Source of the DNA: Lentisphaerae bacterium WC36
GTDB taxonomy: Bacteria > Verrucomicrobiota > Lentisphaeria > Victivallales > SZUA-371
Assembly: GCA_020683205.1 (NCBI GenBank)
Contig: CP085689.1
Span: 496,001 to 560,000, forward strand
Direction of reading: 5' to 3'
DNA: 64,000 nt
Shown: positions 769-37,207 of the stretch, one piece after another
Numbering within the stretch: the first letter of the stretch is position 1
Layout of the letters: each line of letters opens with the position of its first letter
Notes under the pieces: generated by a model
Seen by the model: the letters and a program-made list of their open reading frames with translations, nothing else
Databases searched by the model: none
What the model was told of the DNA's origin: nothing
Program-made: the position numbers and the translations under genes

Positions 769-828
769 CACTGAGAATGATTTTAATTAATTTATAACAA
801 ATATAAGCTAATAAAAACCGTTAATGAA

Positions 829-1842
829 TTGAATAATGGCTCAATTAGTGATAGATTTGTTTGGTTAGGTGATAATTTATTGGCATTAGAAAAAGATGGC
901 GTGGCATTTAATTACATCGCAGATGGCAATAAAAATATCACGCAGTTAATTAATTTAACAACAGGAGAAATCGCTAATAAATACGATTATAGCCCATTTG
1001 GACAATTAGCAAAAACAGATGAGAATGTTGAAAACGTATTCAAATTCAGTTCTGAATATGCTGAAAAAGAAACAGGTTTAATCTATTACAATTACCGTTA
1101 TTATAACCCAACAACTGGCAAATGGCTCAGCCGCGACCCAATCGGTGAAAGAGGCGGAATGAATGTTTACGGTTTTGTTAATAATAATGTTATAAATTAC
1201 TCTGATAGCTATGGATTAAAAAAAGAATATTGTTGTAAAGAAAAAGATATAAATAAAATTGCAGCACAAAAATCGTTACAAGCTTTTAATGAAGCGAAGA
1301 AAAAAATGCATAGAGCCAAACAGCATAGGGAAAAGGAAAAGCAACAAAATGGACATCCAAAAAAAATATATATTATTACTCAATATCCAGAGAAATGTGG
1401 TCAAATTTGTTGTAGTAAAAAAGGGAACGTAAGTGCAACGGGACCTAAGTCAACACATAAGCAAATTAATATCAAATACCTAGGAACTGACAAGAAAACT
1501 AAAAGTAAAATCTACCTAGTGGAAGTGAAGCCAATGTGCAAGACTACGCATCACAAATTAAAGTGCCCTAAAGGAACTAAAACTGTTGCTGATTATCACT
1601 CTCATAGCGCATCACCAAACTTTAGTCGAGATGATTTAGCCATTGCAAATAGACTTGGTAGACCTATTTATTTAGGATATGATGGTACTGTAAAAAAAGG
1701 AACTCCTAAAGGAAATAAAGAATATGAACTTAATGATGGAAGTGGAACAGCAAAAGGTCCAGTTTTTGATGAACATGAAATAGACCCTAAAACAGGTGAA
1801 CAATCATTAATTAGAGAAGATGTTGGGCTTGCTAATTTATAA
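829..1842 (+). CDS. Rhs core fragment with DUF4329/JAB-like toxin, cassette 2
   Basis: Residues 1-130 are Rhs core end (FNYIADGNKNI, YDYSPFGQL, YYNYRYYNP, RDPIGERGG); homology runs upstream in frame to about 790 with no good start, so the TTG at 829 is nominal. The C-terminal domain (131-337) is Lys/Cys-rich and contains YHSHSASPNFSRDDL (His257, His259, Asp268/269) followed by GRPIYLGYDGTVKK. This HxH...S..D arrangement plus the YLG..GTVK strand matches my recollection of DUF4329, a JAB/MPN-like domain common at Rhs C-termini; a peptidase or deamidase activity is inferred. Two exported or envelope-type candidate immunity genes follow. A second toxin of this type is at 23568-24431. Confidence 0.75.
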   Translation: MNNGSISDRFVWLGDNLLALEKDGVAFNYIADGNKNITQLINLTTGEIANKYDYSPFGQLAKTDENVENVFKFSSEYAEKETGLIYYNYRYYNPTTGKWLSRDPIGERGGMNVYGFVNNNVINYSDSYGLKKEYCCKEKDINKIAAQKSLQAFNEAKKKMHRAKQHREKEKQQNGHPKKIYIITQYPEKCGQICCSKKGNVSATGPKSTHKQINIKYLGTDKKTKSKIYLVEVKPMCKTTHHKLKCPKGTKTVADYHSHSASPNFSRDDLAIANRLGRPIYLGYDGTVKKGTPKGNKEYELNDGSGTAKGPVFDEHEIDPKTGEQSLIREDVGLANL

Positions 1843-1856
1843 GAAAAGGTTATAAT

Positions 1857-2600
1857 ATGAAAAAAATATTTATTACATTATTTTATTTATTAATTTTAAG
1901 CTATGTGAATTTAAATGCTAAAAGTAATGATAAATTTATTTTTAATTTAGAATACATCTTGATGAAAGGAAGTTATAAAAATCATTCTCTCAAAAAAATA
2001 TTTAAAATTGATAGTAAAATTAATTTATCTGTTAAGAAAAATAGTATATTTGAAACATTAAAAAATATGTGTGCTAATAATATAAACACACAATTTTTCA
2101 ATAAAAGAATTTTACTATCTTATGTTGAAGGTCCATATATTGATAAATATTCTCGTTTTGATTTTAATGGAATTACAATGAAGGAATTTATTGATACTCT
2201 TAATTTCAATAAATTTTTAATTTTTAAATTTTTTAAATGTAATGAAAATTATTATTTCTTTTTTAAACATGAACAACCTATTCTTGTAAGTGAAACTATT
2301 ACTCCTGTTTTTAATGTAAAGAAAATTATGGAAAAAATTAGTAGCAAGGATAGTCATAAAGTTAATTTGAATAATTATTTAGAACAATTTGGAATAAGGC
2401 GCAGAAATGATAAATTTTTTACAGTTGATTTTTTTAAAAATTATTCTTTTATATCTGATCCAAATAAAAGTTTTAATGACGTGATAATAATAAAAGCTTC
2501 AAAAGAAAACTCCTGTGAAGCTTTAAAAGTAATGCACATTTTAGATTTTTTAAATAAAGGAATCAATATAGTAAAATTAGAAAAAAATCAAAAATTATAA
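1857..2600 (+). CDS. putative exported immunity protein A of cassette 2, STN-like
   Basis: A 247-aa protein with an N-terminal signal peptide (hydrophobic residues 5-21, likely cleavage after NAK). The mature part has the rhythm of short secretin/TonB N-terminal (STN) domains: a strand, then xxxxIFETLKNMC and FNGITMKEFIDTL helices. Its start lies 14 bp after the toxin stop. Periplasmic location fits protection against a peptidase acting on the envelope. The STN resemblance is by eye and weak; the pairing is by position. Confidence 0.55.
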   Translation: MKKIFITLFYLLILSYVNLNAKSNDKFIFNLEYILMKGSYKNHSLKKIFKIDSKINLSVKKNSIFETLKNMCANNINTQFFNKRILLSYVEGPYIDKYSRFDFNGITMKEFIDTLNFNKFLIFKFFKCNENYYFFFKHEQPILVSETITPVFNVKKIMEKISSKDSHKVNLNNYLEQFGIRRRNDKFFTVDFFKNYSFISDPNKSFNDVIIIKASKENSCEALKVMHILDFLNKGINIVKLEKNQKL

Positions 2601-2611
2601 AAGAAGGTGAT

Positions 2612-3244
2612 ATGTTGACATCAGGTCAAATTTCACAACGGTTTGATTTTTCATTAATTGATTATAATGAATCAGATTTGATAGACTCTAATATCAAGTT
2701 TGATTTAGAATATGATGCGATTTCTGTTGGTGAGGCTTTAGAACTAGCTTTTGAAAAATATTTGTCTCATTATGATATGGAAGATACTTTTTTTGATGAA
2801 TCTATTATCAAAATTATTAAAAATCATGATTTATTAAAAAAATATATATCCCTTTCACTAAAAGAGATAACTTTAGCTGAGGCTTTAAATATAATACTAC
2901 ACTCCACTAACTATGATTATTTTATAAATGATATTGATAATAAAAAAACATTGTGTATTTTTGATGACTCTATTAGTAACTCATTGAGTATACCTTATAT
3001 CAAATCTTATCAAATTTCAGAGCAAATTCTGAATAACTTGGGATATATTTTAAAAAGTGGTTTTTTTGACATTACAGATTATTTCAAAAGTAAGAAATTA
3101 ATATCAAATGGTAAAATTTTATATTTTTATAAAGAACAATATCAAAATCCGTTTATTATTTTTATTAATTTGAATAGTGGAGATATAAAAAAGTTAAAAA
3201 CAGTTCTTTTTTTGAGTGCCAATGGGTTCGAATTAAGGTTATAG
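2612..3244 (+). CDS. putative second immunity or accessory protein of cassette 2, STN-like
   Basis: A 210-aa protein preceded by GAAGGTG upstream of its ATG. It lacks a signal peptide, unlike nearly every other immunity candidate here. Two segments, ISVGEALELAFEKY and ISLSLKEITLAEALNIIL, resemble the helix of STN domains and echo the protein encoded just upstream, so the two may be diverged duplicates or two parts of one immunity. It could have lost its leader by recombination. Function unassigned. Confidence 0.45.
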   Translation: MLTSGQISQRFDFSLIDYNESDLIDSNIKFDLEYDAISVGEALELAFEKYLSHYDMEDTFFDESIIKIIKNHDLLKKYISLSLKEITLAEALNIILHSTNYDYFINDIDNKKTLCIFDDSISNSLSIPYIKSYQISEQILNNLGYILKSGFFDITDYFKSKKLISNGKILYFYKEQYQNPFIIFINLNSGDIKKLKTVLFLSANGFELRL

Positions 3245-3346: not shown

Positions 3347-4393
3347 ATGAAACGTAAATTGTTAGGTGATAATTTATTGGCATTAGAAAAAGATGGTGTA
3401 GCATTTAATTACATCGCCGATGGTAATAAAAATATTACGCAGTTAATTAATTTAACAACAGGAGAAATCGCTAATAAATACGATTATAGCCCGTTTGGAC
3501 AATTAGCAAAAACTGATGAGAATGTTGAAAACGTATTCAAATTCAGTAGTGAATATGCCGAAAAAGAAACAGGTCTAGTTTACTATAATTACCGTTATTA
3601 TAACCCAACAACAGGAAAATGGCTCAGCAGAGACCCAATCCAAGAAAAAGGAGGATATAATCTATATCATTTTGTTTACAATAGACCTATTAATTATTAT
3701 GATCGTCATGGACTAAAAGCAGCTTCCGGAGAAAGCAGTGAAGAAAAATGTACTGTTGTAGTTATGTGGGGACATGGTTTTAACTTTCCTGAAAAATTAA
3801 ATGAGTTTAATAAAAATGATAAGGGCTGTGCAGTTGCATCAGGTTTAGGATGTGATAGAAATGGTCTTAATAATAGTAATGGAATAGGTAATGATTTTCC
3901 TAATACTGATGGTCATTCTATTGGAATGTATGACCCTAGCCGACCTTTTGCTAGTGGTGATGTTGATTCCGATGAAGCAAATGGAGGAAGAAATAAAATA
4001 TATAAAGATATTGATGACCCTAAACTGAAGTCAGCAAAAGGTTTTACACGTTTAATCTATGATGCATGGGGCAGTGCATTAAGAAAAGCGTCTGAAATGG
4101 CTGAAGATTGTAAATGCGAATGTGACTTCATTAAAGTTGAATTTAGAGCAGTTGGAGGTCATGATTCAGATAAAGGAAAAAGCACACTGAACAATAGATA
4201 TGATACTGCCTATTCAGATAAAAAGAAAAATAAGAAAAATAAAAGATATATAGATAAATATCAAGGATATAAAATTGAAAAATATGATGAAAATGGTATC
4301 TCAGGAAAAAAAGCAACGCCTCAAAATGCTCCATTACTACCACAAGTTGGAGAAAAACATTACATTAAATGTAAATCTAATTCAAAAAATTAA
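3347..4393 (+). CDS. Rhs core fragment with possible clan CD-like peptidase toxin, cassette 3
   Basis: Residues 1-123 are Rhs core end, joined to a leader with a good RBS. The C-terminal domain (124-348) begins CTVVVMWGHGFN (His143) and has ASGLGCD (Cys169), then FTRLIYDAWGSALRKA and DCKCECDFIKVEFR. The same order occurs in the cassettes at 6523 and 18137. A hydrophobic strand ending in GHG, then one ending in GC about 25 residues later, is the His/Cys dyad layout of clan CD (caspase/gingipain/C80) peptidases; that assignment is inference from motif spacing. The lipoprotein gene that follows is its likely immunity. Confidence 0.65.
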   Translation: MKRKLLGDNLLALEKDGVAFNYIADGNKNITQLINLTTGEIANKYDYSPFGQLAKTDENVENVFKFSSEYAEKETGLVYYNYRYYNPTTGKWLSRDPIQEKGGYNLYHFVYNRPINYYDRHGLKAASGESSEEKCTVVVMWGHGFNFPEKLNEFNKNDKGCAVASGLGCDRNGLNNSNGIGNDFPNTDGHSIGMYDPSRPFASGDVDSDEANGGRNKIYKDIDDPKLKSAKGFTRLIYDAWGSALRKASEMAEDCKCECDFIKVEFRAVGGHDSDKGKSTLNNRYDTAYSDKKKNKKNKRYIDKYQGYKIEKYDENGISGKKATPQNAPLLPQVGEKHYIKCKSNSKN

Positions 4394-4411
4394 AACAATA
4401 TGGAGAATAGA

Positions 4412-4990
4412 ATGAAAAAGCTGATACCCCTCTTTATTTTAGTTAATTCACTCTTTTTAGTGTTACTAACTAATTGTCAAAATCAAGATCAACAACATAC
4501 TGTCAAAAAATCAGATTTCTTAGATGTTTCCAAGTTAAAAGAAATCTCTAGAGTAGATTTTTATAATAAAATTAAAAATGCTGATCGTGCAGTATTTGTT
4601 TTAATGAAAGTAAAAACTCCTAGCAAAGGTAAGTTTTTACTTAATAAACAGGGTTTAGTTCACAAGCAGTGGGTACATAGCCGCACACCCGTAAAAACAA
4701 GTATTTTTAAAAGGGCAAAAAAATTGATTTTAAATAATACTGTAGAATCCGTTTATCTTAGTGATCATTGGTTTAATATGTACGCTTTTGAATTTTACCA
4801 AGAAAATAAATTTATTTTTACTGTTTTTGTTGATTTTTATAGCTCTGAATTGTATTGCTATGACAGCAGAACTAAAATTCATTTGAATCCCAAAAAAGGG
4901 TCTGTCCTAAATTTTTTAATTAACGGCTATTGTTTTCCGTCTATAGATCCAAAAGCCTCTGAGCAATTAGATAAATTAAGATGGAATTAA
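4412..4990 (+). CDS. putative immunity lipoprotein of cassette 3
   Basis: A 192-aa protein starting MKKLIPLFILVNS with lipobox LLTNC, so probably a lipoprotein. ATG 4412 is preferred over ATG 4400 because GGAG at 4402-4405 is correctly placed for it. The mature domain is rich in Phe, Tyr and Trp with no recognised family. The next Rhs core fragment continues in the same reading frame right after this TAA, so a recombination junction sits at this stop codon. Confidence 0.6.
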   Translation: MKKLIPLFILVNSLFLVLLTNCQNQDQQHTVKKSDFLDVSKLKEISRVDFYNKIKNADRAVFVLMKVKTPSKGKFLLNKQGLVHKQWVHSRTPVKTSIFKRAKKLILNNTVESVYLSDHWFNMYAFEFYQENKFIFTVFVDFYSSELYCYDSRTKIHLNPKKGSVLNFLINGYCFPSIDPKASEQLDKLRWN

Positions 4991-5014
4991 GCTGTATATG
5001 GCAAATTAGATGGT

Positions 5015-5956
5015 GTGGTATTTAATTACATCGCTGATGGCAATAAAAATATTACGCAGTTAATTAATTTAACAACAGGAGAAATCGCTAATAAATACGA
5101 TTATAGCCCATTTGGACAATTAGCAAAAACAGATGAGAATGTTGAAAACGTATTCAAATTCAGTTCTGAATGTGCTGAAAAAGAAACAGGTTTAATCTAT
5201 TACAATTACCGTTATTATAACCCAACAACTGGAAAATGGACAAAAAGAGATACTGTTCAAGAACTTGGTGGAGAAAATTTGTATGGATTTACTTTTGGTG
5301 ATTCAATTAATTATTTTGATTTCTTAGGTTTAACAAGTAGTACTTACTTTCCAGGTATTGGGAATCGACCGCAATCACAATTGGAACATAGTGATGAAGA
5401 GTTTGAAAGTGATTATAATGATGACGATAAAATAGGTGTAAACAATTGTTATACTTATGCTTGTGGATTTGATTATTCAACAGATCCTAAAAAAGGAAAC
5501 AAGCCACCTTTAAATAACGATGGTAATACTAATGGAATGTTAGAGCCTGGATCTGCGTCCAGAAAAGGATCATCAATTGACCCTAATAGTGATACTTGGA
5601 AAACCGCTTGCGAAAAATTAAAGGACGGTGCGGTTAGTGATAAAAGGGCCAAGCGTATGGAAGAGGGGCAAACTTCTTGTCCTAAGTGTTGGCATAGAGT
5701 TGCTCTTGTTATTACGGATGTTAAAGGTCAAGATAATAGAGATATTGATTACCATTGGTATCGTGAACATTCTGATGGATCGTGGTCTCATAAACGTGGA
5801 AAAGGAAAAGTTACAGATAAAGATGCGTCTAAAAATAAAATTAAAAATCCAAAAAAAGCTGACAGAGATTATACTGAAAATGGAAAATATATCTATAGAC
5901 CTAATTATAAACATTTCTGTGGTTATATGTGTGCTAAAGATGAACATGTAAAGTAG
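5015..5956 (+). CDS. Rhs core fragment with NCYxYA/DYHWYR papain-like toxin, cassette 4
   Basis: Core homology starts at about 5006 (LDGVVFNYIADG); the GTG at 5015 is nominal. After the core comes a linker, LTSSTYFPGIGNRPQSQL, also found in cassette 8. The toxin domain carries NNCYTYA (Cys145), CPKCWHR, DIDYHWYREHSDGSWSHK (His247), VTDKDAS and HFCGYMC. Cys in an NC(Y)xYA helix followed by His on a strand is a papain-like cysteine peptidase/amidase arrangement. Cassette 6 has the same family with a different immunity gene. Motifs are seen; the fold is inferred. Confidence 0.65.
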   Translation: MVFNYIADGNKNITQLINLTTGEIANKYDYSPFGQLAKTDENVENVFKFSSECAEKETGLIYYNYRYYNPTTGKWTKRDTVQELGGENLYGFTFGDSINYFDFLGLTSSTYFPGIGNRPQSQLEHSDEEFESDYNDDDKIGVNNCYTYACGFDYSTDPKKGNKPPLNNDGNTNGMLEPGSASRKGSSIDPNSDTWKTACEKLKDGAVSDKRAKRMEEGQTSCPKCWHRVALVITDVKGQDNRDIDYHWYREHSDGSWSHKRGKGKVTDKDASKNKIKNPKKADRDYTENGKYIYRPNYKHFCGYMCAKDEHVK

Positions 5957-5965
5957 GAGTTTTGT

Positions 5966-6463
5966 ATGAAAAAAAATTTAATAATTGTAGTATTGGCAAC
6001 TATCATAATTCTTTTAGGAATTTTACTATTAATTCTTTTACATAGAAATCAAAAAAAATATTCAACAGAGACAAGTTCAAAATCTAACTATAGAACGGAA
6101 ATTATTTCAAAATCTTACTTGGCTAGGAAAGGACCGTATAAATCATTTGAGCAATTTTTCAAGGAAATTTATAATAAAGATACAAAATATGAAAGTTATT
6201 ATATATGCCATGAAATCGATGAGCTTAAATTCTATGTGGTTTATACCGCACTTAATTCAAAAAATTATTATACTCCAGATATAGATTTATATTGTTTTTA
6301 TAAAAATGAGGTAAAGATTATTTATCAACCTAAATATTATGTTGGAACTATCGTAAAGAGGGAAAACGATAATTTGATTTTTTGTGATATAGATGATGAA
6401 AAGGCGTATATAATTTTTGAAAATAAATTTCTCACTAGCAAGGCATTTATTCATAGTTTTTAA
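5966..6463 (+). CDS. putative membrane-anchored immunity protein of cassette 4
   Basis: A 165-aa protein with one N-terminal membrane helix (about residues 5-26) and a Tyr-rich soluble part (YESYYICHEIDELKFYVVYT). It follows the toxin by 9 bp with AGGAG at 5956-5960 upstream of its ATG. No family recognised and no evident similarity to the immunity of cassette 6, although the two toxins are related. Confidence 0.55.
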   Translation: MKKNLIIVVLATIIILLGILLLILLHRNQKKYSTETSSKSNYRTEIISKSYLARKGPYKSFEQFFKEIYNKDTKYESYYICHEIDELKFYVVYTALNSKNYYTPDIDLYCFYKNEVKIIYQPKYYVGTIVKRENDNLIFCDIDDEKAYIIFENKFLTSKAFIHSF

Positions 6464-6522
6464 TTAATAAATAATTTTCTATATGAGAATTTTTATAAAA
6501 ATGCATATAATGCTATAAAAGC

Positions 6523-7500
6523 ATGACTCTGTTAGTAAGATTAACGAATAGTGCTATAATAAATAAGTATGATTATGGCCCATTTGGACAATTAGCAAAA
6601 ACAGATGAGAATGTTGAAAACGCATTCAAATTCAGTAGCGAATACGCCGAAAAAGAAACAGGCTTAATTTATTACAATTACCGTTATTACAACCCAAGCA
6701 CAGGAAAATGGTTAAAACGTGACCCAATCCAAGAAAAAGGAGGGGTAAATCTTTATGTAATACTTGGAGCAGATCCACTTAATTATTCCGATTTATACGG
6801 ATTGAAAGAAGTTTCAGAAGAAAAAAATAAAGAAAAGTGTAAAGTCGTTCTATTATGGGGGCATAATGGTGATGTTCAGGATGGAATTGAAAAATTTGAT
6901 AAAAATAAAGATAAGTGTAGTTGCGTTGGAGGTGTGGCTTGTTATACTGATGGTAGAAATGGTATAAAAGGTATGCCTAATTGTGCTGGAGGTCTTGTAG
7001 GAACTGATCCTGGTTGTTCAAATGGAGGTTATTATGAAAAATACAAAAAACAATACCCTAATGATAGTGAAGCTAAAGCGTTACATAGCTCTTTTACTCG
7101 CTTAATGATGCAGGCGTGGTTTGCTACATTAAATAAAGCTTATAAAATGTCCCAAAACTGTGATTGTGATTGTAAAAATATAAGCGTGGAATTTAGGGTT
7201 TCATCAAAATATAAGGGCGTAGCATTAGATTATAGATACAGGGGTGATAGACCAAAATCTGACAAAAATGGTAAAATTGTTGAAGGAGAGTATGAGTATC
7301 AAGGGCAGAACAGGTATAAAAAATATTATTATAATGAAGAAGGTAAGCGTGCGGAGTGGGATGGGAAAACGCCATGTGGTAAACACAAGCCTTCATTTCC
7401 ATCGCCTTATTATGATAAGAAAGGGCAACAAAAGAATAAATATCCTAAAATATTGCCTTTAAATAATGATAAATTTAGTTTTCCATGTAAAAATAAGTAA
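6523..7500 (+). CDS. Rhs core fragment with possible clan CD-like peptidase toxin, cassette 5
   Basis: The core is short and enters through a variant, LTNSAIINKYDYGPFGQL, shared in type with the cassette at 18137. The toxin domain (about 95-325) has CKVVLLWGHNGD (His114), CVGGVACYTDG (Cys140), FTRLMMQAWFATLNKA and NCDCDCKNISVEFR. His-Cys spacing is 26 residues, identical to cassette 3. It extends further with a charged Tyr-rich tail. Function as a cysteine peptidase is a motif-based inference. Confidence 0.6.
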   Translation: MTLLVRLTNSAIINKYDYGPFGQLAKTDENVENAFKFSSEYAEKETGLIYYNYRYYNPSTGKWLKRDPIQEKGGVNLYVILGADPLNYSDLYGLKEVSEEKNKEKCKVVLLWGHNGDVQDGIEKFDKNKDKCSCVGGVACYTDGRNGIKGMPNCAGGLVGTDPGCSNGGYYEKYKKQYPNDSEAKALHSSFTRLMMQAWFATLNKAYKMSQNCDCDCKNISVEFRVSSKYKGVALDYRYRGDRPKSDKNGKIVEGEYEYQGQNRYKKYYYNEEGKRAEWDGKTPCGKHKPSFPSPYYDKKGQQKNKYPKILPLNNDKFSFPCKNK

Positions 7501-7518
7501 TTAAAAGAGATTCGTAAT

Positions 7519-8133
7519 ATGATTAATACAGTACTAACAATTCCCATTGTTTTTTCGATAGCCATTGAGCTTAATCAAATTCAAACTAAGCCTGTAAAAA
7601 GAATTTTAGAAAAATCTTGTAAAAATGGCGATATTAATTATGTGATAAATAATTGTGATCAACTTACAGTGGTTGTGCTAAAAGAAGAAGAGCTCTACAA
7701 AAAGTATATTCGAAATTTGCCACAAAGTATAGTTAAAAATTGTAGAATAAAAGATGAGTTTATCCGAAAGAAAATTGTTTGTGAAAAAGGTATTCGTAAA
7801 CTATTTTTGGAAACAATGAATAGTGGAGGTCGTACTTATGGTGGGGGAATTGATGCCTTATTTCTTTACTATGCTTTTGAACTTTCATATCAAAACACCC
7901 CTATGCTGGCTATTATTCCAAATGTTGTTGGGTATGATATTTACACTTTTCCTAGAAATAGTAAAATGATTTATGGAGGAATGGATGAAATCTTAACTCA
8001 TAAGCTTAATCATGTTTTTTTTATGGCGTTATGGTTAAATAAATATAGAAAATTGCATCTTAGAAAAAATAAGAATGAGCCTTGTAAAGAGGAGACTTGT
8101 TTAGAATTACCGTTTGAAGATAACTTGTTATGA
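7519..8133 (+). CDS. putative immunity protein of cassette 5
   Basis: A 204-aa protein directly after the toxin. The first 17 residues are moderately hydrophobic (INTVLTIPIVFSIAIE) but not a clear signal peptide, so location is uncertain; a second nonpolar stretch lies near PMLAIIPNVVGYDIY. No family recognised; assigned by position. Confidence 0.5.
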   Translation: MINTVLTIPIVFSIAIELNQIQTKPVKRILEKSCKNGDINYVINNCDQLTVVVLKEEELYKKYIRNLPQSIVKNCRIKDEFIRKKIVCEKGIRKLFLETMNSGGRTYGGGIDALFLYYAFELSYQNTPMLAIIPNVVGYDIYTFPRNSKMIYGGMDEILTHKLNHVFFMALWLNKYRKLHLRKNKNEPCKEETCLELPFEDNLL

Positions 8134-8185
8134 GTAGTAAATTTCTAAGTCATTAGCATATAAGCTAATAAAAACCGTTGATGAG

Positions 8186-9133: not shown

Positions 9134-9147
9134 TGGAATTCTGATAA

Positions 9148-10507: not shown

Positions 10508-10510
10508 AAC

Positions 10511-11038: not shown

Positions 11039-11040
11039 TA

Positions 11041-11859: not shown

Positions 11860-11898
11860 AAATTATTTTTAAAATTTGTTTGGTTAGGTGATAATTTA

Positions 11899-12801: not shown

Positions 12802-12804
12802 AAA

Positions 12805-23296: not shown

Positions 23297-23298
23297 TT

Positions 23299-27464: not shown

Positions 27465-27466
27465 TT

Positions 27467-27766: not shown

Positions 27767-27908
27767 AAAAGAACCTATTAATGTTATATAAAATAGAGTA
27801 AACTATGATAATAAGAATATTTGTAAATTAATAAATCTAACTGATGGAAGTATTTCAAATAAATATGAATATTCACCTTTCGGTCAGCTGAAAAGCGATA
27901 CCGAAATA

Positions 27909-28622: not shown

Positions 28623-28626
28623 TAAA

Positions 28627-29141: not shown

Positions 29142-29175
29142 AACACCATAACTTAAAAAATTATGGTGTTTTGTT
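29142..29175 (+). terminator. recurrent ACACCAT hairpin terminator, copy 4
   Basis: AACACCATAA...TTATGGTGTT stem followed by TTGTTT. It ends about 167 bp after the immunity gene, and the next core fragment starts at about 29180. The 29000-29140 stretch before it holds no supportable gene. Confidence 0.8.
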
Positions 29176-29211
29176 TACAACAAATATAAGCTAATAAAAA
29201 CCGTTGATGAG

Positions 29212-30183
29212 TTGAATAATGGCTCAATAAGTGATAGATTTGTATGGTTAGGTGATAATTTGTTGGCATTAGAAAAAGATGGTGTGGTATTTAATTACAT
29301 CGCTGATGGCAATAAAAATATCACGCAGTTGATTGATTTAACAACAGGAGAAATCGCTAATAAATACGATTATAGCCCGTTTGGACAATTAGCAAAAACA
29401 GATGAGAATGTTGAAAACGTATTCAAATTCAGTAGTGAATATGCCGAAAAAGAAACAGGCTTAATTTATTACAATTACCGTTATTACAACCCAAGCACAG
29501 GTAAATGGATCAACAGAGACCCAATCCAAGAAAAAGGCGGAACAAATTTGTATGGCTTTGTTGTTAACAAACCCGTGAATTATTCAGATGATTTAGGGTT
29601 ATCTTCATATTTATCATGGAAAGCACGACGTGAATTAGAGGAGCTAGAAAAAGAAGAAAAACAAAAGAAAAAAGATGAAAAAGATACTAAAAGCGGTTGC
29701 TGTGGGAGTGAAAAGATAAATAGACTAAAACAATGTTGTAAAGGAGGCAAGGCTAAAGATAAATTTATTATATGTATAATGGTGCAACCAGCAGCTACAT
29801 CTGGAAGCGTTGGTCATGCATGGATATATGTTGTGAATTTAAGGACAAAAGAAAAACACACACATGCAAATTATCGAAACGGTCTTAAAGATGATTTAGA
29901 CTTAAACTCTAAAAAAACTGGAAAAATAATTAAAAAATGTGCTACAATTTGTGACTTTAAAAAAACAACTCCACCTCCATATGACGGTGTAACAAGTAAT
30001 TGCGCAACTTATGCCATAAATGAATGGAATAAACATACAGGAGAAAATATATCTGGGACAGGGACTCCAGAATATGACTCAACAGGGAAAGATAATTTAC
30101 CACCAGATAATCTCATGCATTTTGGACGACACTTCACTCCCAATCCTAGTTCATTATCTAGAAATATAACAAATCAAAATTAG
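29212..30183 (+). CDS. Rhs core fragment with permuted papain/NlpC-like toxin, cassette 20
   Basis: Core 1-130, TTG start nominal (homology from about 29180). A charged helical linker (EELEKEEKQKKKDEKD) leads to a domain with GCCGSEK and QCCKGG, then GSVGHAWIYVVN (His202), an HTHANYRNG segment and GVTSNCATYAINEWNKHTG (Cys264). His before Cys in GHAW...NCATYA is the permuted papain order of LRAT/NlpC-P60-like enzymes, which act on lipids, peptidoglycan or thioesters. The motif is seen; substrate unknown. Confidence 0.65.
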   Translation: MNNGSISDRFVWLGDNLLALEKDGVVFNYIADGNKNITQLIDLTTGEIANKYDYSPFGQLAKTDENVENVFKFSSEYAEKETGLIYYNYRYYNPSTGKWINRDPIQEKGGTNLYGFVVNKPVNYSDDLGLSSYLSWKARRELEELEKEEKQKKKDEKDTKSGCCGSEKINRLKQCCKGGKAKDKFIICIMVQPAATSGSVGHAWIYVVNLRTKEKHTHANYRNGLKDDLDLNSKKTGKIIKKCATICDFKKTTPPPYDGVTSNCATYAINEWNKHTGENISGTGTPEYDSTGKDNLPPDNLMHFGRHFTPNPSSLSRNITNQN

Positions 30184-30200
30184 AAAAAAAGGACTTTAAA

Positions 30201-30665
30201 ATGAAAAAAAAATTAATTATTACACTTTTATTTCTTTTTATTTTAATATATGGAAATATATGGTTTTTTGGAGAAATAAGAAAATTAAGTTCTCCTAGAG
30301 TAAAAAGTATAACTGTAGATAATATAACAGCAGTTAAAATTTTTGAAAAAAAATACATAGCATTGGAGGTTTCATCATTCCATGACTCAATGGATCAAAT
30401 CAATCTTTATGGAATTAGTAATCATAAAAATAAAATAATTATTGCTAATATTATGGATGGACTATTAAGTAAGGTTAACTCCAATTTATGTTTTAACTTT
30501 CCTAAATTAGTTCTTATACCTCTTGAGGAACTTGATGAAGGCATAACGAAAGTTGAAACAATGAATTACCCTACACCAAGTTTATTGTTTTCCATTTTGA
30601 AAAAAGGAAATAATTTTGAAATAATTAATTATAACCGTGAAAGAGTCACTATTAAAGAAAAGTAA
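30201..30665 (+). CDS. putative membrane-anchored immunity protein of cassette 20
   Basis: A 154-aa protein with one N-terminal helix (about 5-22) after AAAGGA. The longest frame of the next cassette starts inside its last codons, and Rhs core homology begins 5 bp after its stop, so the junction here is very tight. Confidence 0.5.
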   Translation: MKKKLIITLLFLFILIYGNIWFFGEIRKLSSPRVKSITVDNITAVKIFEKKYIALEVSSFHDSMDQINLYGISNHKNKIIIANIMDGLLSKVNSNLCFNFPKLVLIPLEELDEGITKVETMNYPTPSLLFSILKKGNNFEIINYNRERVTIKEK

Positions 30666-31572
30666 GTTATTTTGCTACATCGCTGATGGCAATAAAAATA
30701 TTACACAGTTGATTGATATGAGTTCGGGTTCGGTTGCGAATCGTTATGATTATTCGCCATTCGGTCAGTTATCGTTAGATAACGAGACCGTGGCGAATCC
30801 ATTCAAATTTTCAAGCGAATACGCCGAAAAAGAAACAGGTCTAGTTTACTATAATTACCGTTATTACGACCCAACAACAGGCAAATGGCTCAGCAGAGAC
30901 CCAATAGAAGAAGACGGAGGAGTTAGCTTATACAATTTTGTAGGCAATGAACCTAACAATTACTTTGATCTATTTGGGCTAGTAAGTTGTAGTAAGCTTG
31001 AAAAAATTGTACAAAAAGCTTTTAATGTAATGGAAAAGGCAAAGAAAAAAAGGGGGTTGTTTACAGGCGGGTATACAGATGCTAGGGCTGAGATTATAGA
31101 TATATTTGGAAACACATTGGAACATTGGGGCGATGATGCTATGAAAGTAGTTAGAGCAAAACTTAGAGGTGATTATGGACCTACAAGTATTGGTAGTATT
31201 ATTGCAAGCATTGTAGACAATGCACTTTCTGATCCTTTGGAAACTGATTTAGATGGTATTCAAGAAGAAAGTGGTTTTTCAAAATACCCTAATGATCAGT
31301 GTAAAACTGCTTTAGATAATTTAAAAAATGCTATTGATATCTTAAGAAAAACGGCAAAAATGGTTAAATGGCTTCGTCGAACAAAACTAGATTCACATAA
31401 AACAAAATGTCCTAGAGTGTATAAAAAATATATTAAAAAATTAAATAGCTGGAGAAATCATTGGGATTATAATCTTTTAAAAGTAAAAGATGAGGTAAAA
31501 AGAATAATGAAAAGAGTTGAAAAATACTGTAAATGTCCAGATGATGATAGTAGTGATTCAGAATTAGATTAG
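30637..31572 (+). CDS. Rhs core fragment with all-helical toxin, cassette 21
   Basis: The frame opens at GTG 30637 inside the previous gene; core homology starts at about 30671 (YIADGNKNITQL). The toxin domain (about 105-311) is predicted all-helical: KIVQKAFNVMEKAKKKRG, ALDNLKNAIDILRKTAKMVK, RVYKKYIKKLNSWRNHW, and a CKCPDDDSSDSELD tail. No recognised family or catalytic motif. Confidence 0.55.
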   Translation: MKESLLKKSKLFCYIADGNKNITQLIDMSSGSVANRYDYSPFGQLSLDNETVANPFKFSSEYAEKETGLVYYNYRYYDPTTGKWLSRDPIEEDGGVSLYNFVGNEPNNYFDLFGLVSCSKLEKIVQKAFNVMEKAKKKRGLFTGGYTDARAEIIDIFGNTLEHWGDDAMKVVRAKLRGDYGPTSIGSIIASIVDNALSDPLETDLDGIQEESGFSKYPNDQCKTALDNLKNAIDILRKTAKMVKWLRRTKLDSHKTKCPRVYKKYIKKLNSWRNHWDYNLLKVKDEVKRIMKRVEKYCKCPDDDSSDSELD

Positions 31573-31609
31573 CCTTGGCTTAAATTTTACAATATTACTT
31601 TAAAAGTTA

Positions 31610-31640
31610 GGTAATCATCTTTTTTTAAAAGATGATTACC
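31610..31640. repeat. perfect 14-bp inverted repeat
   Basis: GGTAATCATCTTTT and AAAAGATGATTACC separated by TTT form a perfect hairpin between the toxin and immunity genes of cassette 21. No T-run follows, so it could be an attenuating hairpin, a regulator site or an mRNA stabiliser rather than a simple terminator. Confidence 0.7.
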
Positions 31641-31659
31641 AAGATAAAAAGGGTAGTTT

Positions 31660-32481
31660 ATGAAAAAAAAACTTAAATATATTTCAATTAGTGTAACGAT
31701 TTTAGCAATGATACTGGTTCTTTATTATAAAAGCAGTCACATAATTAAAGAAAAGGATAGTGTAATAGAAATTTTTCGAAATCTCTGTGCAATGGATAAT
31801 AAAGAACTTGTTCAAAAAATTAATACAAATCCTGAAGTTTTTAAATTGAAAGATAAGTATGGTAGTGATTATTTAGATTTTTGTATTACCCATAATATGT
31901 TCGATCATTTTAAATGCTTAATTGAAAATAATTTTCAATTTAGATATAAGCAACAACATTATTTGAACAGGACCATTTTTTTAAAAAGAAAAAAGATGAC
32001 GCAAACATTATTGAAAAATGGAGTGAAAAAAACTATTGCGTATGAAATTAGTGTCGATAACCTTCAGGCTTTAAAACAATGGATTGCTAATAAAGAAAAA
32101 AATAATCTTTCTTACTCTCAGAGTAATATTTATGCTTTGGCATTGAAATATAAAAGTATGAAATGTTTAAAGTTTATTTTAACAGGAATCAAAAAGAAAA
32201 CGGAATCATTTTTTTTATTTAGAAAAGCTATTGTTGAAGAAAATGTTGAAGTTTTAAAATTGCTATGTCAAGAGGGATTTGATATCAACTCAACAAGTTG
32301 GTATGATAAAAATAACAACGTTTTAAATTGTGCTTATTCATATGGATCCAATGATAAAATTATTAATTGCTTAAAAGAGTTAGGAGCTGTTGAAAATAAG
32401 GCTACAAAAGAATATAAAAATAAATATAAGAAAGATAGAAATCGTAGTAAAATTATTGAAAATTTCAGTGAAGTAAATTAG
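31660..32481 (+). CDS. putative membrane-anchored ankyrin-like immunity protein of cassette 21
   Basis: A 273-aa protein with one N-terminal membrane helix (about 7-23). The rest has ankyrin-like repeats (YLDFCITHNMFDHFKCLIENNF, FRKAIVEENVEVLKLLCQEGFDINS, LNCAYSYGSNDKIINCLKELGA read as repeat units). It is separated from its toxin by 87 bp, more than in other cassettes, with the inverted repeat between. Ankyrin and TPR solenoids are common toxin-binding scaffolds. Confidence 0.55.
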   Translation: MKKKLKYISISVTILAMILVLYYKSSHIIKEKDSVIEIFRNLCAMDNKELVQKINTNPEVFKLKDKYGSDYLDFCITHNMFDHFKCLIENNFQFRYKQQHYLNRTIFLKRKKMTQTLLKNGVKKTIAYEISVDNLQALKQWIANKEKNNLSYSQSNIYALALKYKSMKCLKFILTGIKKKTESFFLFRKAIVEENVEVLKLLCQEGFDINSTSWYDKNNNVLNCAYSYGSNDKIINCLKELGAVENKATKEYKNKYKKDRNRSKIIENFSEVN

Positions 32482-32513
32482 CGCCTGTTTTTGTATGGTT
32501 AGGTGATAATTTA

Positions 32514-33209
32514 TTGGCATTAGAAAAAGATGGCGTGGTATTTAATTACATCGCAGATGGCAATAAAAATATCACACAGTTGATTGATATGAGTTCGGGT
32601 TCAATAGCGAATCGTTATGATTATTCGCCATTCGGTCAGCTAATTGCGGACGTAGAAACGGTTGAAAATCCATTCAAATTCAGTTCGGAATTTCATGACG
32701 AAGAAAGCGGCTTAGTATATTATAATTATAGATACTATAATCCAACAACAGGCAAATGGCTCAACAGAGACCCAATCCAAGAAAAAGGCGGTTTAAATAT
32801 ATACGGTTTTGTAAATAATCAACCAATAACAAAGGTAGACAATTTAGGACATGACGCTAAAAGTGTGAAACATGTTTACAATAAATATATTAAATATGAG
32901 GGGAGAATTGAATACTCTTGTGAAGAGGGCAAGGAATATATAAAATTAGTTGATTTTCCAGGGTGGGATGTCCTTATTCAATACACTATTTCTTACAACG
33001 ATTTTGGAACATATTATAGACCAAGTATAAAACAATATGGCTATACAATGGACGATTATACTTGTAATGGTTTTTGTTATAAAAGAAAAGTTCTAATACT
33101 TGAGTATGTCGGTATTTGGGAGGCTAATGTTATGGGAATTTATACAAAAATAGACCTTTTCAAAAATTTTGTGTCGGTGGATTGCCCTTGTAGAAAAATA
33201 AAAAAATGA
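32514..33209 (+). CDS. Rhs core fragment with short unassigned toxin, cassette 22
   Basis: Core homology from about 32490 (VWLGDNLLALEK), of the mosaic type IDMSSGSIANRY + IADVETVENPF + SSEFHDEESGL. The toxin domain (about 118-231) is Tyr-rich and probably beta: RIEYSCEEGKEYIKLVDFPGW, YTCNGFCYKRKVLILEYVGIW and a closing VDCPCRKIKK. The CPC tail recalls cassettes 7 and 11. No catalytic motif. Confidence 0.55.
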   Translation: MALEKDGVVFNYIADGNKNITQLIDMSSGSIANRYDYSPFGQLIADVETVENPFKFSSEFHDEESGLVYYNYRYYNPTTGKWLNRDPIQEKGGLNIYGFVNNQPITKVDNLGHDAKSVKHVYNKYIKYEGRIEYSCEEGKEYIKLVDFPGWDVLIQYTISYNDFGTYYRPSIKQYGYTMDDYTCNGFCYKRKVLILEYVGIWEANVMGIYTKIDLFKNFVSVDCPCRKIKK

Positions 33210-33223
33210 GGTTATATTATAAC

Positions 33224-33673
33224 ATGAATAAAAAAATACTATTATTTATCACCCTGGTTATTGGATTACTAATATTGAATGGGTGTAAAAAAAGATATTG
33301 TGGCAATTCTGGGGGAGTTAAAAATGTGGAGGTAAATAATAACTCATATGAAATCGGTGAAGCTATACAATTTGGTCAAACTCCTAAAGATGTATTGTGG
33401 ATTATTCTATGGAAAGCAAAAAATGGTGTAGCAAGTTCGGCTTCATCTGGGCTTATTGATACCATACATGGAATAAAGGTAAATCCACCAAAAAAATATT
33501 GCCTTTATACACTGGATAGTACAAAAATATTGCGTGAAATTACTTTAACTAAAAAAGAATTTTTTATTATTACTGATTATTTGGTAAATAATAAAGACTT
33601 ATCAAAATGTAAATTGTTTTCAGAAAAAGTAATAGGTAAATTAGGTTCTTTAAATAAGAAAAGTTATAAATAA
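33224..33673 (+). CDS. putative immunity lipoprotein of cassette 22
   Basis: About 149 aa from ATG 33224 (an in-frame ATG at 33206 overlaps the toxin stop). Signal peptide MNKKILLFITLVIGLLILNGC with a clear lipobox ILNGC at its end. Soluble part with a GQTPKDVLWIILWKAKNG segment; no family recognised. Confidence 0.6.
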   Translation: MNKKILLFITLVIGLLILNGCKKRYCGNSGGVKNVEVNNNSYEIGEAIQFGQTPKDVLWIILWKAKNGVASSASSGLIDTIHGIKVNPPKKYCLYTLDSTKILREITLTKKEFFIITDYLVNNKDLSKCKLFSEKVIGKLGSLNKKSYK

Positions 33674-33734
33674 TTTAGCAACTCATCAAACGGTCATTTT
33701 TAACAAATATAAGCTAATAAAAACAGTTGATGAG

Positions 33735-34655
33735 TTGAATACTGGTTCAATAAGTGATAGATTTGTATGGTTAGGTGATAATTTATTGGCATTAGAAAAA
33801 GATGGCGTGGTATTTAATTACATCGCCGATGGCAATAAAAATATCACTCAGTTAGTTAATTTAACAACAGGAGAAATCGCTAATAAATACGATTACACTC
33901 CATTTGGACAATTAGCAAAAACAGATGAAAATGTTGAAAACCCATTCAAATTCAGTTCTGAATTTCATGACGAAGAAAGTGGCTTAGTATATTATAACTA
34001 TAGATACTATAATCCTGTAAACGGCAAATGGCTCAGCAGAGATATAATAGGTGATTTTACAGAGAAAAAAAACTTTAATTTATTATATGGATTTGTGGGT
34101 AATGACGCTATTAATAAAAATGATGAATTAGGTTTAGAAGAAATAAATTGTGAACCAACATTGCGAGCTGGAGGTTCGGGAGACGTTTTTAAAGAGGAGA
34201 TTGGTACTGATGTGCCGATGGAAGGATTTGGTTATTATGGACATGTTTCAACTAGTAATAGAGGTTTAACTGCATTTATGTCTGTAAAAACTTTAGCGTT
34301 TGGATTTATGGGATTTCCTCGACTTGGAATGGCAAATGTGACTGTGAAAGTTAAAGTTTCTTGTTATTGCCACAAAGGAGAGTGCAAGGCTAGTATAGGA
34401 CAAAAAGGACGTACAGTCGATAGACACTCATATGCATTAGCAGGAATCTATATAAAACTTTCTTCCAGTGGTGATACTGCAACTGCCACAGTAGTAGGAC
34501 TTGCGGGCTTTAATGGTACCGCTAAAATCGAAGTTGGTGGAAGTGTAGGTAAAGATGGAATAGCAAGCGGAGGAATTACAGCAAAATTTCCTGATGCGGA
34601 TATATCATATCCTGTTGAAATGGGAACGTTTACATGGACTTGTGATAAGAAATAA
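33735..34655 (+). CDS. Rhs core fragment with VSCYC/TWTC toxin, cassette 23
   Basis: Core homology from about 33702; mosaic haplotype VNLTTGEIANKYDYTPF + ENPFKFSSEFHDEESGL, ending in an unusual RDIIGDFTEKKNFN. The toxin domain (about 140-306) has VTVKVKVSCYCHKGECKASI, SSSGDTATATVVGLAGF, GSVGKDGIASGGI and GTFTWTCDKK. It aligns with cassette 19 along its length. Likely a beta-structured envelope-targeting toxin; mechanism unknown. Confidence 0.65.
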   Translation: MNTGSISDRFVWLGDNLLALEKDGVVFNYIADGNKNITQLVNLTTGEIANKYDYTPFGQLAKTDENVENPFKFSSEFHDEESGLVYYNYRYYNPVNGKWLSRDIIGDFTEKKNFNLLYGFVGNDAINKNDELGLEEINCEPTLRAGGSGDVFKEEIGTDVPMEGFGYYGHVSTSNRGLTAFMSVKTLAFGFMGFPRLGMANVTVKVKVSCYCHKGECKASIGQKGRTVDRHSYALAGIYIKLSSSGDTATATVVGLAGFNGTAKIEVGGSVGKDGIASGGITAKFPDADISYPVEMGTFTWTCDKK

Positions 34656-34673
34656 TTGAGAGGAACATTTTTT

Positions 34674-34922
34674 ATGAAAGATAAATTAATTTATTGGAGC
34701 CTTTTATTGGCTCCTTTATTAACACTTGGGTTGTTTTTTTGTGACCGAATAATTTCAAATATTTATTTTTTTTTAGTAATAGCTGTAGGGAATATAGTTA
34801 GTATTAAAAAAAAAGAAAATCCATCTTTCAAAATTATTCGAATTGAATATAAAATGCTTTTAGTTTTGATTATTTTTATTTTACTTCTTTATATTCCTGC
34901 CTTTTTGTTATTTAATAATTAG
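34674..34922 (+). CDS. putative two- to three-helix membrane immunity protein of cassette 23
   Basis: An 82-aa protein; GAGAGGA precedes ATG 34674. Hydrophobic helices at about 6-22, 26-42 and 60-80. A broken copy of this gene lies at 20233-20325, so this cassette, or a relative, once also sat upstream. Confidence 0.6.
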   Translation: MKDKLIYWSLLLAPLLTLGLFFCDRIISNIYFFLVIAVGNIVSIKKKENPSFKIIRIEYKMLLVLIIFILLLYIPAFLLFNN

Positions 34923-35021
34923 CAGGTCATGATTAAATGTTAATGGTATTAAAAAAAATGATATTTTTTTGTTTTTTATATTATTTATATTTACACACAT
35001 GAAAAAAAGTTAAAAGGGTGA

Positions 35022-35410
35022 TTTGTATGGTTAGGTGATAATTTATTGGCATTAGAAAAAGATGGTGTAGCATTTAATTACATCGCAGACTGCAACAAAA
35101 ATATCACGCAGTTAGTTAATTTAACAACAGGAGAAATCGCTAACAACCATTTGGACAATTAGCAAAAACAGATGAGAATGTTGAAAACGCATTTAAATTC
35201 AGTAGCGAATATGCAGAAAGTGAAACAGGTTTAATATACTATAACTATAGATATTATAACCCAACAACTGGCAAATGGCTAAATAGAGACCCAATCCAAG
35301 AAAAAGGCGGAAATAATTTATATGGAATAGCAGGGAATAGTCCTGTAAATTATGCAGATTCGTTAGGTTTAGCATGGAGCTGGGATGAGCCAGAGGGAGA
35401 GACAAAGACT
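35022..35410 (+). pseudogene. Rhs core fragment with 13-bp deletion, cassette 24
   Basis: Core DNA starts at about 35022 (TTTGTATGGTTAGGTGATAA). Compared with other copies, 13 bp are missing between GCTAACAA and CCATTTGG at about 35147, shifting the frame; ADGN also reads ADCN. Downstream the frame PFGQLAKTDENVENAFKFSS ... RDPIQEKGG is intact and continues into the toxin. The core cannot be read through as one protein. Confidence 0.8.
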
Positions 35411-35950
35411 TTGAAAGTAAACGACGTAGTTTCAAGTTATGATAAATGGGGTTATTTTGGACCAGTTCCATGGAAAATGAAAGCATATGTGTTTTTAAAA
35501 GGGGCAGCGGGGGCATTTTCTAATTCAGTCGAGGCCTTTATTAGAGGACAGTTTTTAAAACCAGCTAGATTTCTAGGGGTTCATGTTGGATATACTTTTT
35601 ACAAGGTAAATAACAGACTAGATTTAAACTTTAAATGTGACTCTAATACTGGGAAAATTACAAAGGGACCACAACGAAATGGTGAAACCACTAAAGAACA
35701 AGATGGACCTTTAAAGACAAAAATTATAATGGAACATAAAATAGAAGCTATAGGGGAAAATAAGAATACTGTTACTGTCGATGTAATAGTAATAGCAAAA
35801 GTTGGAGGGAAAATTACTAGTACGGATATTGCTGGAGTTGGTAATGGTGATTATGGTGGAGCTTCTAGTGAATCTAGTATATCTCATGACGCTGGCTCAA
35901 CTTGGCGTATAGATAGGACTTTTATTTTAACATGTTCATGTAAAAAATAG
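35411..35950 (+). CDS. Rhs-CT toxin domain of cassette 24, TCSC tail
   Basis: The frame is open from about 35148; TTG 35411 is only the first usable start. The domain contains WGYFGPVPWKMKAYVFLKG, a hydrophobic Ala/Gly section, a LNFKCDSNTGKITKGP strand, repeated Val/Thr strands and FILTCSCKK. The closing TCSCK is repeated in the fragment at 36432, whose immunity gene is also homologous. Beta-rich; function unassigned. Confidence 0.55.
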   Translation: MKVNDVVSSYDKWGYFGPVPWKMKAYVFLKGAAGAFSNSVEAFIRGQFLKPARFLGVHVGYTFYKVNNRLDLNFKCDSNTGKITKGPQRNGETTKEQDGPLKTKIIMEHKIEAIGENKNTVTVDVIVIAKVGGKITSTDIAGVGNGDYGGASSESSISHDAGSTWRIDRTFILTCSCKK

Positions 35951-35960
35951 GAATATAGTG

Positions 35961-36431
35961 ATGAAAAGAGTTGTTTTATTATTTAGTTTATTTTGTAGCA
36001 TATCTTTATTTTTTGGCTGTGAACCTTCTATGGATGATTTTAGTGTTATTGGACAATATTATTATAATGAAAATAGCGATTATAATATGTACGCAATATG
36101 TTACAAAGAAAAAGTGCAATACATAATGTTCATAAAAAAAGGAGTAAGTTGTAAAGAAATTAGTTACATAAAGTTTGATAAAAAACTCATAGCTAGTAAA
36201 GGGTTAACATATTTTTCTAGCTATAAAAATAAAGTTTATTTTGATGGGCAAAAAATTAATGTGTTAGGAAAATTTTTAATTGTTGACAAAAGTGAGGTTC
36301 ATGAAATAAAACTTCCTGAAATTGAACTAGATAAATTAAAATATAAAGAAGATGGTAAGACTTGGATTACTAAAAAAATGTGGGATGAAGAAATCATCCC
36401 ATCATTTAATAAAACAAAAAAGAAGAAATAA
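35961..36431 (+). CDS. putative immunity lipoprotein of cassette 24
   Basis: A 156-aa protein from ATG 35961 with lipobox LFFGC. It has KGLTYFSSYKNKVYFDGQKI, a DKSEVHEIKLP strand and a C-terminal TWITKKMWDEEIIPSFNK. The protein at 36635 shares these blocks (KGLTYFSSCDNQVYYDGQKI, EFKLPGVNL, TWKDVIVPAFDK), so the two are paralogous immunities. Confidence 0.65.
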   Translation: MKRVVLLFSLFCSISLFFGCEPSMDDFSVIGQYYYNENSDYNMYAICYKEKVQYIMFIKKGVSCKEISYIKFDKKLIASKGLTYFSSYKNKVYFDGQKINVLGKFLIVDKSEVHEIKLPEIELDKLKYKEDGKTWITKKMWDEEIIPSFNKTKKKK

Positions 36432-36625
36432 AATTATATTTTACTGTTAATATTGTTATTTCTGGAGGCGTTAACGGAACTAAAGGACATGGCGAATCAA
36501 TTCAAATAGGAGGAGGACCTGTATTTATAGAGGGTTCTATTGGAGCTGATGAATCATTATCATATCCTGGTGGTCTAGGAGCAAAAAAAAGTTCAACTGT
36601 CAAATTAACTTGTTCATGTAAATAA
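36432..36625 (+). pseudogene. orphan 3' remnant of a TCSC-type toxin, cassette 25
   Basis: With no Rhs core or start, the frame reads KLYFTVNIVISGGVNGTKGH ... GSIGADESLSYPGG ... KLTCSCK-stop. It matches the tail of the cassette 24 toxin in layout and ends the same way. It sits between two homologous immunity genes, so a deletion appears to have removed the core and most of the toxin of a duplicated cassette. Confidence 0.7.
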
Positions 36626-36634
36626 GGAGAGAAA

Positions 36635-37207
36635 ATGTATTGTTTCAGAAATATTTTATTGTGTTTATTTGTAACTATTTTACTATTTTTAATTGGTTGT
36701 GAAAAAAATAATGCTAAAATTAATTTACCCAAAAAAACACAAGATAATGATGCAAGTACTTTAATAGAGTTTGGAAAAGAAAAGGATAAAGATTTTTTTT
36801 CTGGAAGAGAACACTATTATGGTATGAATACTAATAGATATAGTTGTGTTGGCATATACTATAAAAATACAATACAGTATGTCATGATTTTAAAAACAAG
36901 TTATTTAATAAATAAATCCAAGGATGATTTGCATTGGAGAAGCTTAAATTATCAAGATCCAGATAAAACAAAAGTATTAAAGAAAGGTTTAACTTATTTT
37001 TCAAGTTGTGATAATCAGGTTTATTATGATGGACAAAAAATTGATGTTTATAAGAAAATCATGTTAGTAGATAAAAACGGTATCAGAGAATTTAAACTTC
37101 CCGGTGTTAATCTTAATGATTTCAAAAAAGATCAAATATTTTTTATTGATCAAAAAACTTGGAAGGACGTTATTGTGCCAGCATTTGATAAACCATTTAA
37201 AAAGTAA
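36635..37207 (+). CDS. putative immunity lipoprotein of cassette 25 (toxin lost)
   Basis: A 190-aa protein with lipobox LIGC after a 20-residue hydrophobic leader; AAGGAGAG precedes ATG 36635. Paralogue of the 35961 gene. Retention of an intact immunity beside a deleted toxin fits selection for protection against siblings that still deploy it. Confidence 0.65.
   Translation: MYCFRNILLCLFVTILLFLIGCEKNNAKINLPKKTQDNDASTLIEFGKEKDKDFFSGREHYYGMNTNRYSCVGIYYKNTIQYVMILKTSYLINKSKDDLHWRSLNYQDPDKTKVLKKGLTYFSSCDNQVYYDGQKIDVYKKIMLVDKNGIREFKLPGVNLNDFKKDQIFFIDQKTWKDVIVPAFDKPFKK

Follow-up and report, generated by a model that had tools for sequence, protein, structure and literature searches.

In the 3.66 Mb single-contig genome of Lentisphaerae bacterium WC36 we found an array of 33 cassettes (array 1; C1:482205–532431, ~50 kb), each made up of a partial rhs core, a different open 3' extension of 104–231 amino acids (aa), here called the tip, and, in most cases, an adjacent immunity-like gene. 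Its beginning is 13.8 kb upstream of the 64,000-nucleotide stretch that was analysed (C1:496001–560000, referred to below as the window) and its end is within it. We consider it probable that array 1 is an expanded, headless orphan rhs-CT/rhsI (C-terminal toxin/immunity) array of an exported Rhs polymorphic-toxin system and that it acts as a reservoir whose members are exchanged by recombination through the core.

Architecture and coding capacity of array 1

Window positions 786–36431 hold 23 rhs gene fragments of 290–550 bp that correspond to the RHS-associated core, each joined to a different tip; the window itself opens inside a 24th cassette, of which it includes the tip and the immunity gene, the core being just upstream of the first base. 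Repeat finding recovered 21–23 in-register copies of one 98–300 nt block between positions 796 and 35367, and the TIGR03696 (Rhs_assc_core) model scored above its cut-off in one full-length Rhs protein and in nine of nine cassette open reading frames (ORFs) tested. All 33 core–tip cassettes point the same way, with a median period of 1485 bp and a median gap of 17 nt between the immunity stop codon and the next core. While the core is common, the tips vary: a blastp comparison of 44 tips (42 stored ones and the two carried by the full-length genes described below) yielded only two near-identical pairs, and many tips had no homologue in the set. An earlier sequence-only reading, which described about 25 silent cassettes at 787–37207, was right about the repeated core end, the changing C-terminal domains and the span (the first core in the window starts at 786, the last immunity-like ORF ends at 37207 and a hairpin terminator follows at 37246–37271). 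The cassettes it counted are real, but the array is larger than it supposed and more arrays exist elsewhere in the genome.

Cassette borders coincide with the homologous core, and the core/tip border motif (PxxxxDPxGL-type) is present in the relaxed form DxxGL. The last L of this motif is replaced by Q, K, N or H in roughly one-third of the cores (those of tips 2, 6, 19, 21, 22, 25, 27, 30 and others), often next to hydrophobic or beta-rich tips. Each of the 33 tips keeps an open frame of 104 codons or more, the chance of a random frame in this sequence reaching 100 codons being 0.0003, and in 25 of the 33 cassettes (18 of 23 in the window) core and tip share one open frame. Frame breaks, which the sequence-only reading had listed along with missing starts, therefore affect only a minority of cores; starts are indeed absent from most core–tip frames. 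A candidate immunity gene, an ORF of at least 60 aa, follows 30 of the 33 tips; cassettes 0, 21 and 25 have none.

Array 1 opens with 0.76 kb of truncated rhs 3' end, which makes the array headless. A full-length head directly upstream of it, which the earlier reading had taken to be the expressed gene, is rejected by this finding; full-length genes are found elsewhere, at 2.23 and 3.47 Mb. Orphan rhs-CT/rhsI pairs usually follow a full-length rhs gene that shares their core, an arrangement that is customary for the family rather than strictly required; it is seen in a second array (array 2, below) and not in array 1. Nor is this a polyimmunity locus, since the immunity genes alternate with core–tip ORFs and only the last of them stands alone. 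No integron integrase was seen among the ORFs examined, although no search aimed at an integrase or attC was made. In a first-look count of TIGR03696 matches, in which fragmented assemblies are undercounted, this genome had 74 candidates, the most among 288 genomes of the phylum (next 55, 27 and 24). An assembly artefact is unlikely, given that the cores differ from each other, that most immunity genes and spacers are unique and that one contig makes up the genome.

The cassettes are probably not translated in place, judging from their missing starts. A start codon with a Shine–Dalgarno (SD)-like 4-mer is present 5' of the tip in only 5 of 42 core–tip ORFs (in just one case before the core) compared with 27 of 40 immunity ORFs, and the first start codons of the core–tip frames are mostly internal rhs codons. 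Cassette 11 is the only one with GGAGG and ATG directly 5' of its core, which would suit cassettes that are independently expressed short toxin genes, as would promoter-like matches that slightly exceed those in shuffled sequences (138 versus 112 ± 10.5 and 134 versus 110 ± 9.4), a scan of AT-rich DNA in which so slight an excess is uninformative. Independent expression is nevertheless highly improbable: the other 41 of the 42 ORFs lack an SD-preceded start before the core, and their products would have no export signal.

The presence of start signals on immunity ORFs and their general lack on core–tip ORFs is also what might be seen if the immunity genes were selected against the many toxin types of neighbours while core and tip hitch-hiked, a possibility raised by Poole et al. 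(2011; PMC3150448); the lone immunity-like gene at the array end points in the same direction. We find this somewhat unlikely, because the tips are as intact as the immunity genes, homologous tips have ratios of non-synonymous to synonymous substitution (dN/dS) of ~0.3–0.8, and a pure bank of immunity genes would be expected to shed its tips, as in polyimmunity loci (PMC3482391). The median dN/dS of the cores is 0.20, and these ratios, together with the open frames, would fit a turnover that outpaces decay.

Exchange through the core and the full-length rhs genes

The sequence-only reading depended on a full-length rhs gene with the same core being present in the genome, and there are two: the gene at 2.23 Mb encodes a protein of 1962 aa and the one at 3.47 Mb a protein of 1925 aa. 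Array 2 consists of nine cassettes located 3' of the 3.47 Mb head; no cassette was found behind the 2.23 Mb head, where ~2 kb of the downstream sequence is N.

Comparison of the two arrays supports a recombination-fed exchange among cassettes that are probably silent. Cassette 13 is the counterpart of cassette 34 of array 2 (99% identity in the tip, 100% in the immunity gene) and cassette 15 that of cassette 35 (100% identity from the core end on). In both cases the identity of 99–100% extends across tip, immunity gene and spacer, and divergence begins inside the flanking cores. The order is 13-14-15 in array 1 and 13-15 in array 2, where cassette 14 is precisely missing; core 35 resembles core 14 as far as alignment column 694, except for four isolated sites, and resembles core 15 from column 703 onwards. 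Such a chimera would be the expected product of a crossover between cores 14 and 15 that looped out cassette 14 or, in the reverse direction, of the insertion of this cassette. Across 36 cores, four-gamete incompatibility is 0.53 for sites no more than 20 nt apart and ~0.80 for those separated by over 40 nt (permutation p 0.0005), so that linkage decays within the cores. Cassettes 6 and 19 have a left junction in common (91% over 98 bp) and unrelated tips, an identical hairpin is found 5' of cores bearing different tips, and the core of the heads, taken in short windows, agrees with different array cores, at up to 100%. The mosaic cores, the shared cassettes with breaks inside cores and the chimeric core 35 bear out the homologous exchange in the core that had been proposed earlier.

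The two head loci show no differences over 7 kb and align over 10.8 kb at 99.3%. Towards the tip the differences per 250 bp rise from 2, 3 and 6 to 78, after which the tips are unrelated. In Pfam, the full-length Rhs matches RHS repeats plus one sub-threshold entry only, with no N-terminal PAAR or VgrG, and its N-terminus reads as a signal peptide; it does not fit a PAAR/VgrG-linked Rhs effector of a type VI secretion system. A homologue of VipA, a type VI secretion sheath protein, is encoded in the genome at C1:256155–256616.

On the reading that we favour, cassettes would be moved by ordinary homologous recombination, for which the RHS-associated core offers 0.25–0.45 kb of shared sequence. 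If two neighbouring cores crossed over, a core–tip–immunity unit would be looped out; this unit, or incoming DNA, would be inserted wherever it crossed into another core, and where that core was the 3' one of a full-length rhs gene, the gene would acquire a new tip together with the matching immunity gene. The 33-cassette array would be a chromosomal reservoir exchanging with array 2 and with both full-length rhs loci, and we infer that stored tips return to a head. A more specific proposal, that a dispersed headless chromosomal library feeds tip switching of the two exported Rhs genes within one growing population and is specialised for disulfide-rich envelope or extracellular toxins, is tentative and, taken as a whole, unlikely.

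The array may instead have grown by sequential displacement (Jackson 2009; Kirchberger 2017), each incoming tip/immunity pair pushing the old tip downstream into an array that is never drawn on and whose original head was later lost. Stepwise accretion of this sort would be consistent with the variable core lengths and the hairpins inside the array, with 8 of 33 cores being broken, with the missing head of array 1 and with head tips that have no stored donor. It sits less well with the openness of every tip and with the movement of cassettes between arrays after storage; the tip of cassette 15, for instance, is on a frame-broken core in array 1 and on an intact one in array 2. We judge such a graveyard to be somewhat unlikely.

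Array 1 and both head loci have, ~15–18 kb upstream, genes for a PIF1 helicase and for a replication protein of the YagK/YfjJ type, an AAA_25 ATPase is encoded upstream of the 3.47 Mb locus, and the head loci share ~16 kb in three pieces at 97.7–99.8%. All this would agree with a mobile element having spread the cassettes, the three loci being separately arrived copies of one carrier, each with its own tips. A mobile element may account for the multiplication of the loci, but the mosaic cores and the internal crossover of core 35 would be left unexplained and still need homologous exchange, and as a full account we hold it to be distinctly unlikely.

Several results weigh against the favoured reading of array 1 as an exchanging reservoir. 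Comparison of the head tips with the 42 stored tips (blastp) found no homologue for either. The heads differ only at their 3' ends, as the tip swap envisaged by the sequence-only reading would have it, but the lack of a stored donor for their tips would also suit displacement or import from outside. The pattern is not that of a gene-conversion store of the pilS/pilE type, in which the sequence at the expression site is a copy of a stored donor; the head tips argue against simple copying from the library. The case is built on one genome of the genus, and the low dN/dS could stem from earlier expressed states. As to the putative toxins, most tips tested have no Pfam toxin domain, structure models of two tip families (pLDDT 45–48) were too poor for a fold search, and three tip families were absent from 147 relatives, including from their full-length Rhs proteins; the neighbouring ORFs are candidate immunity genes by their position and length.

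Predicted products and layout of the cassettes

We take the tips to be putative toxins and the genes next to them their candidate antidotes. The few domains recognized among the tips tested were DUF4329/JAB (cassettes 10 and 24) and a matrixin-like zinc motif in cassette 9 (HEFGHxxGLDH, metalloprotease-like; weak Pfam M10 match, E 0.00066). A PDB match was sought for one tip family and none was found, and for the most part the tips seem to have little in common with toxin families already known. A number of them look short and hydrophobic by eye, and cysteines are more frequent in tips (4.1 per 100 aa) than in other ORFs of the region (1.4). An N-terminal hydrophobic segment is found in 37 of 44 immunity ORFs versus 33 of 58 ORFs of a mixed control that includes spurious ones, and the immunity proteins are predicted to be mostly exported or membrane-bound. 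Cysteine-rich tips, such immunity proteins, the signal-peptide-like N-terminus of the full-length Rhs and the lack of PAAR together suggest that the predicted toxins act in the envelope or outside the cytoplasm.

All cassettes in the window are on the + strand; in the following, brackets give the span and then core, end of tip and immunity ORF. The 3' part of cassette 9 (1–768) has its tip stop at 413 and an immunity-like ORF at 400–768. In cassette 10 (786–3244; core 786–1218) the JAB/DUF4329-like tip runs to 1842 and is followed by ORFs 1857–2600 and 2612–3244. Next come cassettes 11 (3361–4990; 3361–3715, 4393, 4400–4990), 12 (5008–6463; 5008–5332, 5956, 5966–6463), 13 (6491–8133; 6491–6804, 7500, 7519–8133) and 14 (8158–10041; 8158–8575, 9133, 9148–10041), then cassette 15 with its frame-broken core (10160–11859; 10160–10519, 11038, 11041–11859) and cassette 16 (11874–13851; 11874–12237, 12801, 12805–13851).

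An array-specific hairpin terminator (ACACCATAG..TGTGGTGT; 13876–13901, + strand) separates cassette 16 from cassette 17 (13902–15308; 13902–14333, 14888, 14901–15308), the core of which starts immediately 3' of it. Cassette 18 (15360–16611; 15360–15650, 16139, 16099–16611) is followed by a second such hairpin (16691–16716, +) and by cassette 19, which has a membrane immunity protein (16787–18067; 16787–17178, 17751, 17756–18067). The tip of cassette 20 (18093–20188; core 18093–18409, tip to 19021) precedes three ORFs (19022–19543, 19540–19977 and 19928–20188). Cassettes 21 (20328–21111; core 20328–20748, tip to 21111) and 25 (25205–25980; core 25205–25638, tip to 25980) both end in a hydrophobic tip without an immunity ORF of at least 60 aa. 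Between them lie cassettes 22 (21440–22394; 21440–21871, 22186, 22143–22394), 23 (22365–23553; 22365–22777, 23296, 23293–23553), with an in-frame stop in the 5' part of its core, and 24 (23554–25197; 23554–23840, 24431, 24355–25197), with a DUF4329 tip.

The third hairpin of this kind (26200–26225, +) precedes cassette 26 (26286–27766; 26286–26837, 27464, 27419–27766), whose core is long (552 bp), and cassette 27 (27805–28974; 27805–28100, 28622, 28603–28974), whose core is divergent; the fourth (29143–29169, +) is directly 5' of the core of cassette 28 (29170–30665; 29170–29601, 30183, 30201–30665). The immunity protein has ankyrin repeats in cassette 29 (30647–32481; 30647–30981, 31572, 31660–32481), is lipoprotein-like in cassette 30 (32406–33673; 32406–32852, 33209, 33206–33673) and a membrane protein in cassette 31 (33684–34922; 33684–34136, 34655, 34656–34922). 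Cassette 32, with a frame-broken core (35020–36431; 35020–35371, 35950, 35958–36431), encodes another lipoprotein-like immunity protein, and a similar ORF (36635–37207, +) with no tip 5' of it appears to be an orphan immunity gene. The hairpin at 37246–37271 (+) closes the array. This same hairpin occurs in seven copies across arrays 1 and 2 and in one copy in the rest of the genome, and its recurrence at 13876, 16691, 26200, 29143 and 37246 may show where the array, or blocks accreted to it, once ended.

Additional rhs cassette arrays, of a different core type, are located at C1:576784–597000, 624–628 kb and 1031–1035 kb (L036–L039), one of them headed by an rhs gene for a 1675-aa protein. 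The tip family of cassettes 11, 13 and 20 recurs in a different-core array at 589314, so that tip families cross core types. Downstream of array 1 the window contains two group II introns (43603–46251 and 47560–50225), each with Rfam D1-D4-5 and catalytic-domain matches and a reverse-transcriptase ORF (44250–46115, with HNH, and 48204–50090); both lie between a MoxR/CbbQ-like AAA gene (41734–42711) and a CobT-like VWA gene (50378–51553).

Comparison with known systems

Where alternative Rhs and CDI tips are kept, and by what route they reach the expressed gene, has been debated since 2009. The genome analysed here combines a chromosomal reservoir with heads that are duplicated and differ in their tips, and it contains a product of the looping out, or insertion, of a single cassette, so that the mechanism of re-arming can be tested directly; the array is also a source of new candidate toxin/immunity pairs. 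In genomes that have such systems the median number of toxin domains is three (PMC3482391).

The closest likeness is to the dissociated rhs tips of Enterobacteriaceae (Jackson et al., 2009; PMC2935791), likewise rows of core fragments of varying length with unrelated tips, mostly startless, for which excision and insertion of core–tip circles by core recombination was proposed. Those strings are directly 3' of an intact rhs gene (three in the Serratia example), whereas here there are 33 and no head. Since none had turned up on the chromosome, the reservoir was presumed in that study to be episomal; here it is chromosomal, and a loop-out or insertion product and exchange within one genome are visible. 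Poole et al. (2011; PMC3150448) described orphan cdiA-CT/cdiI and rhs-CT/rhsI pairs behind a shared motif, with a startless toxin part and an immunity part that could be expressed, as in array 1. The largest array named there has eleven pairs (Escherichia coli EC869) and lies behind cdiBAI, compared with 33 detached ones in WC36. These authors also proposed that the locus is duplicated before a tip swap, avoiding loss of immunity; two near-identical heads with different tips are the predicted state, although dispersed rather than tandem.

In Salmonella Typhimurium LT2, the main rhs gene receives an orphan tip through recombination across 522 bp of core that are 95% identical (Koskiniemi et al., 2014; PMC3967940). 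That work was experimental and concerned one orphan beside one main gene, whereas our case comprises dozens of cassettes in dispersed arrays and is argued from sequence. The silent mafB-CT cassettes of Neisseria, which lack an initiation codon and are followed by immunity genes (Jamet et al., 2015; PMC4287609), belong to a non-Rhs toxin family and are found 3' of their own full-length gene. Growth of arrays by repeated arrival of effector/immunity modules has been described as well (2017; PMC5361080), but there the old effectors are lost and immunity genes alone remain, while the tips of array 1 are intact.

Among relatives, a genome of the same order (G012) has full-length heads of 2002–2230 aa with a few cassettes behind them that point the same way, so that the combination of head and cassettes predates this genus; the array of 33 cassettes without a head seems to be an elaboration of it. 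Viral contigs contained two distant full-length relatives and no array. Array 1 is thus of a known kind, the orphan rhs-CT/rhsI array, and goes beyond the published systems compared in its size, the loss of its head, its dispersed exchange and the mapped crossover product of a single cassette.

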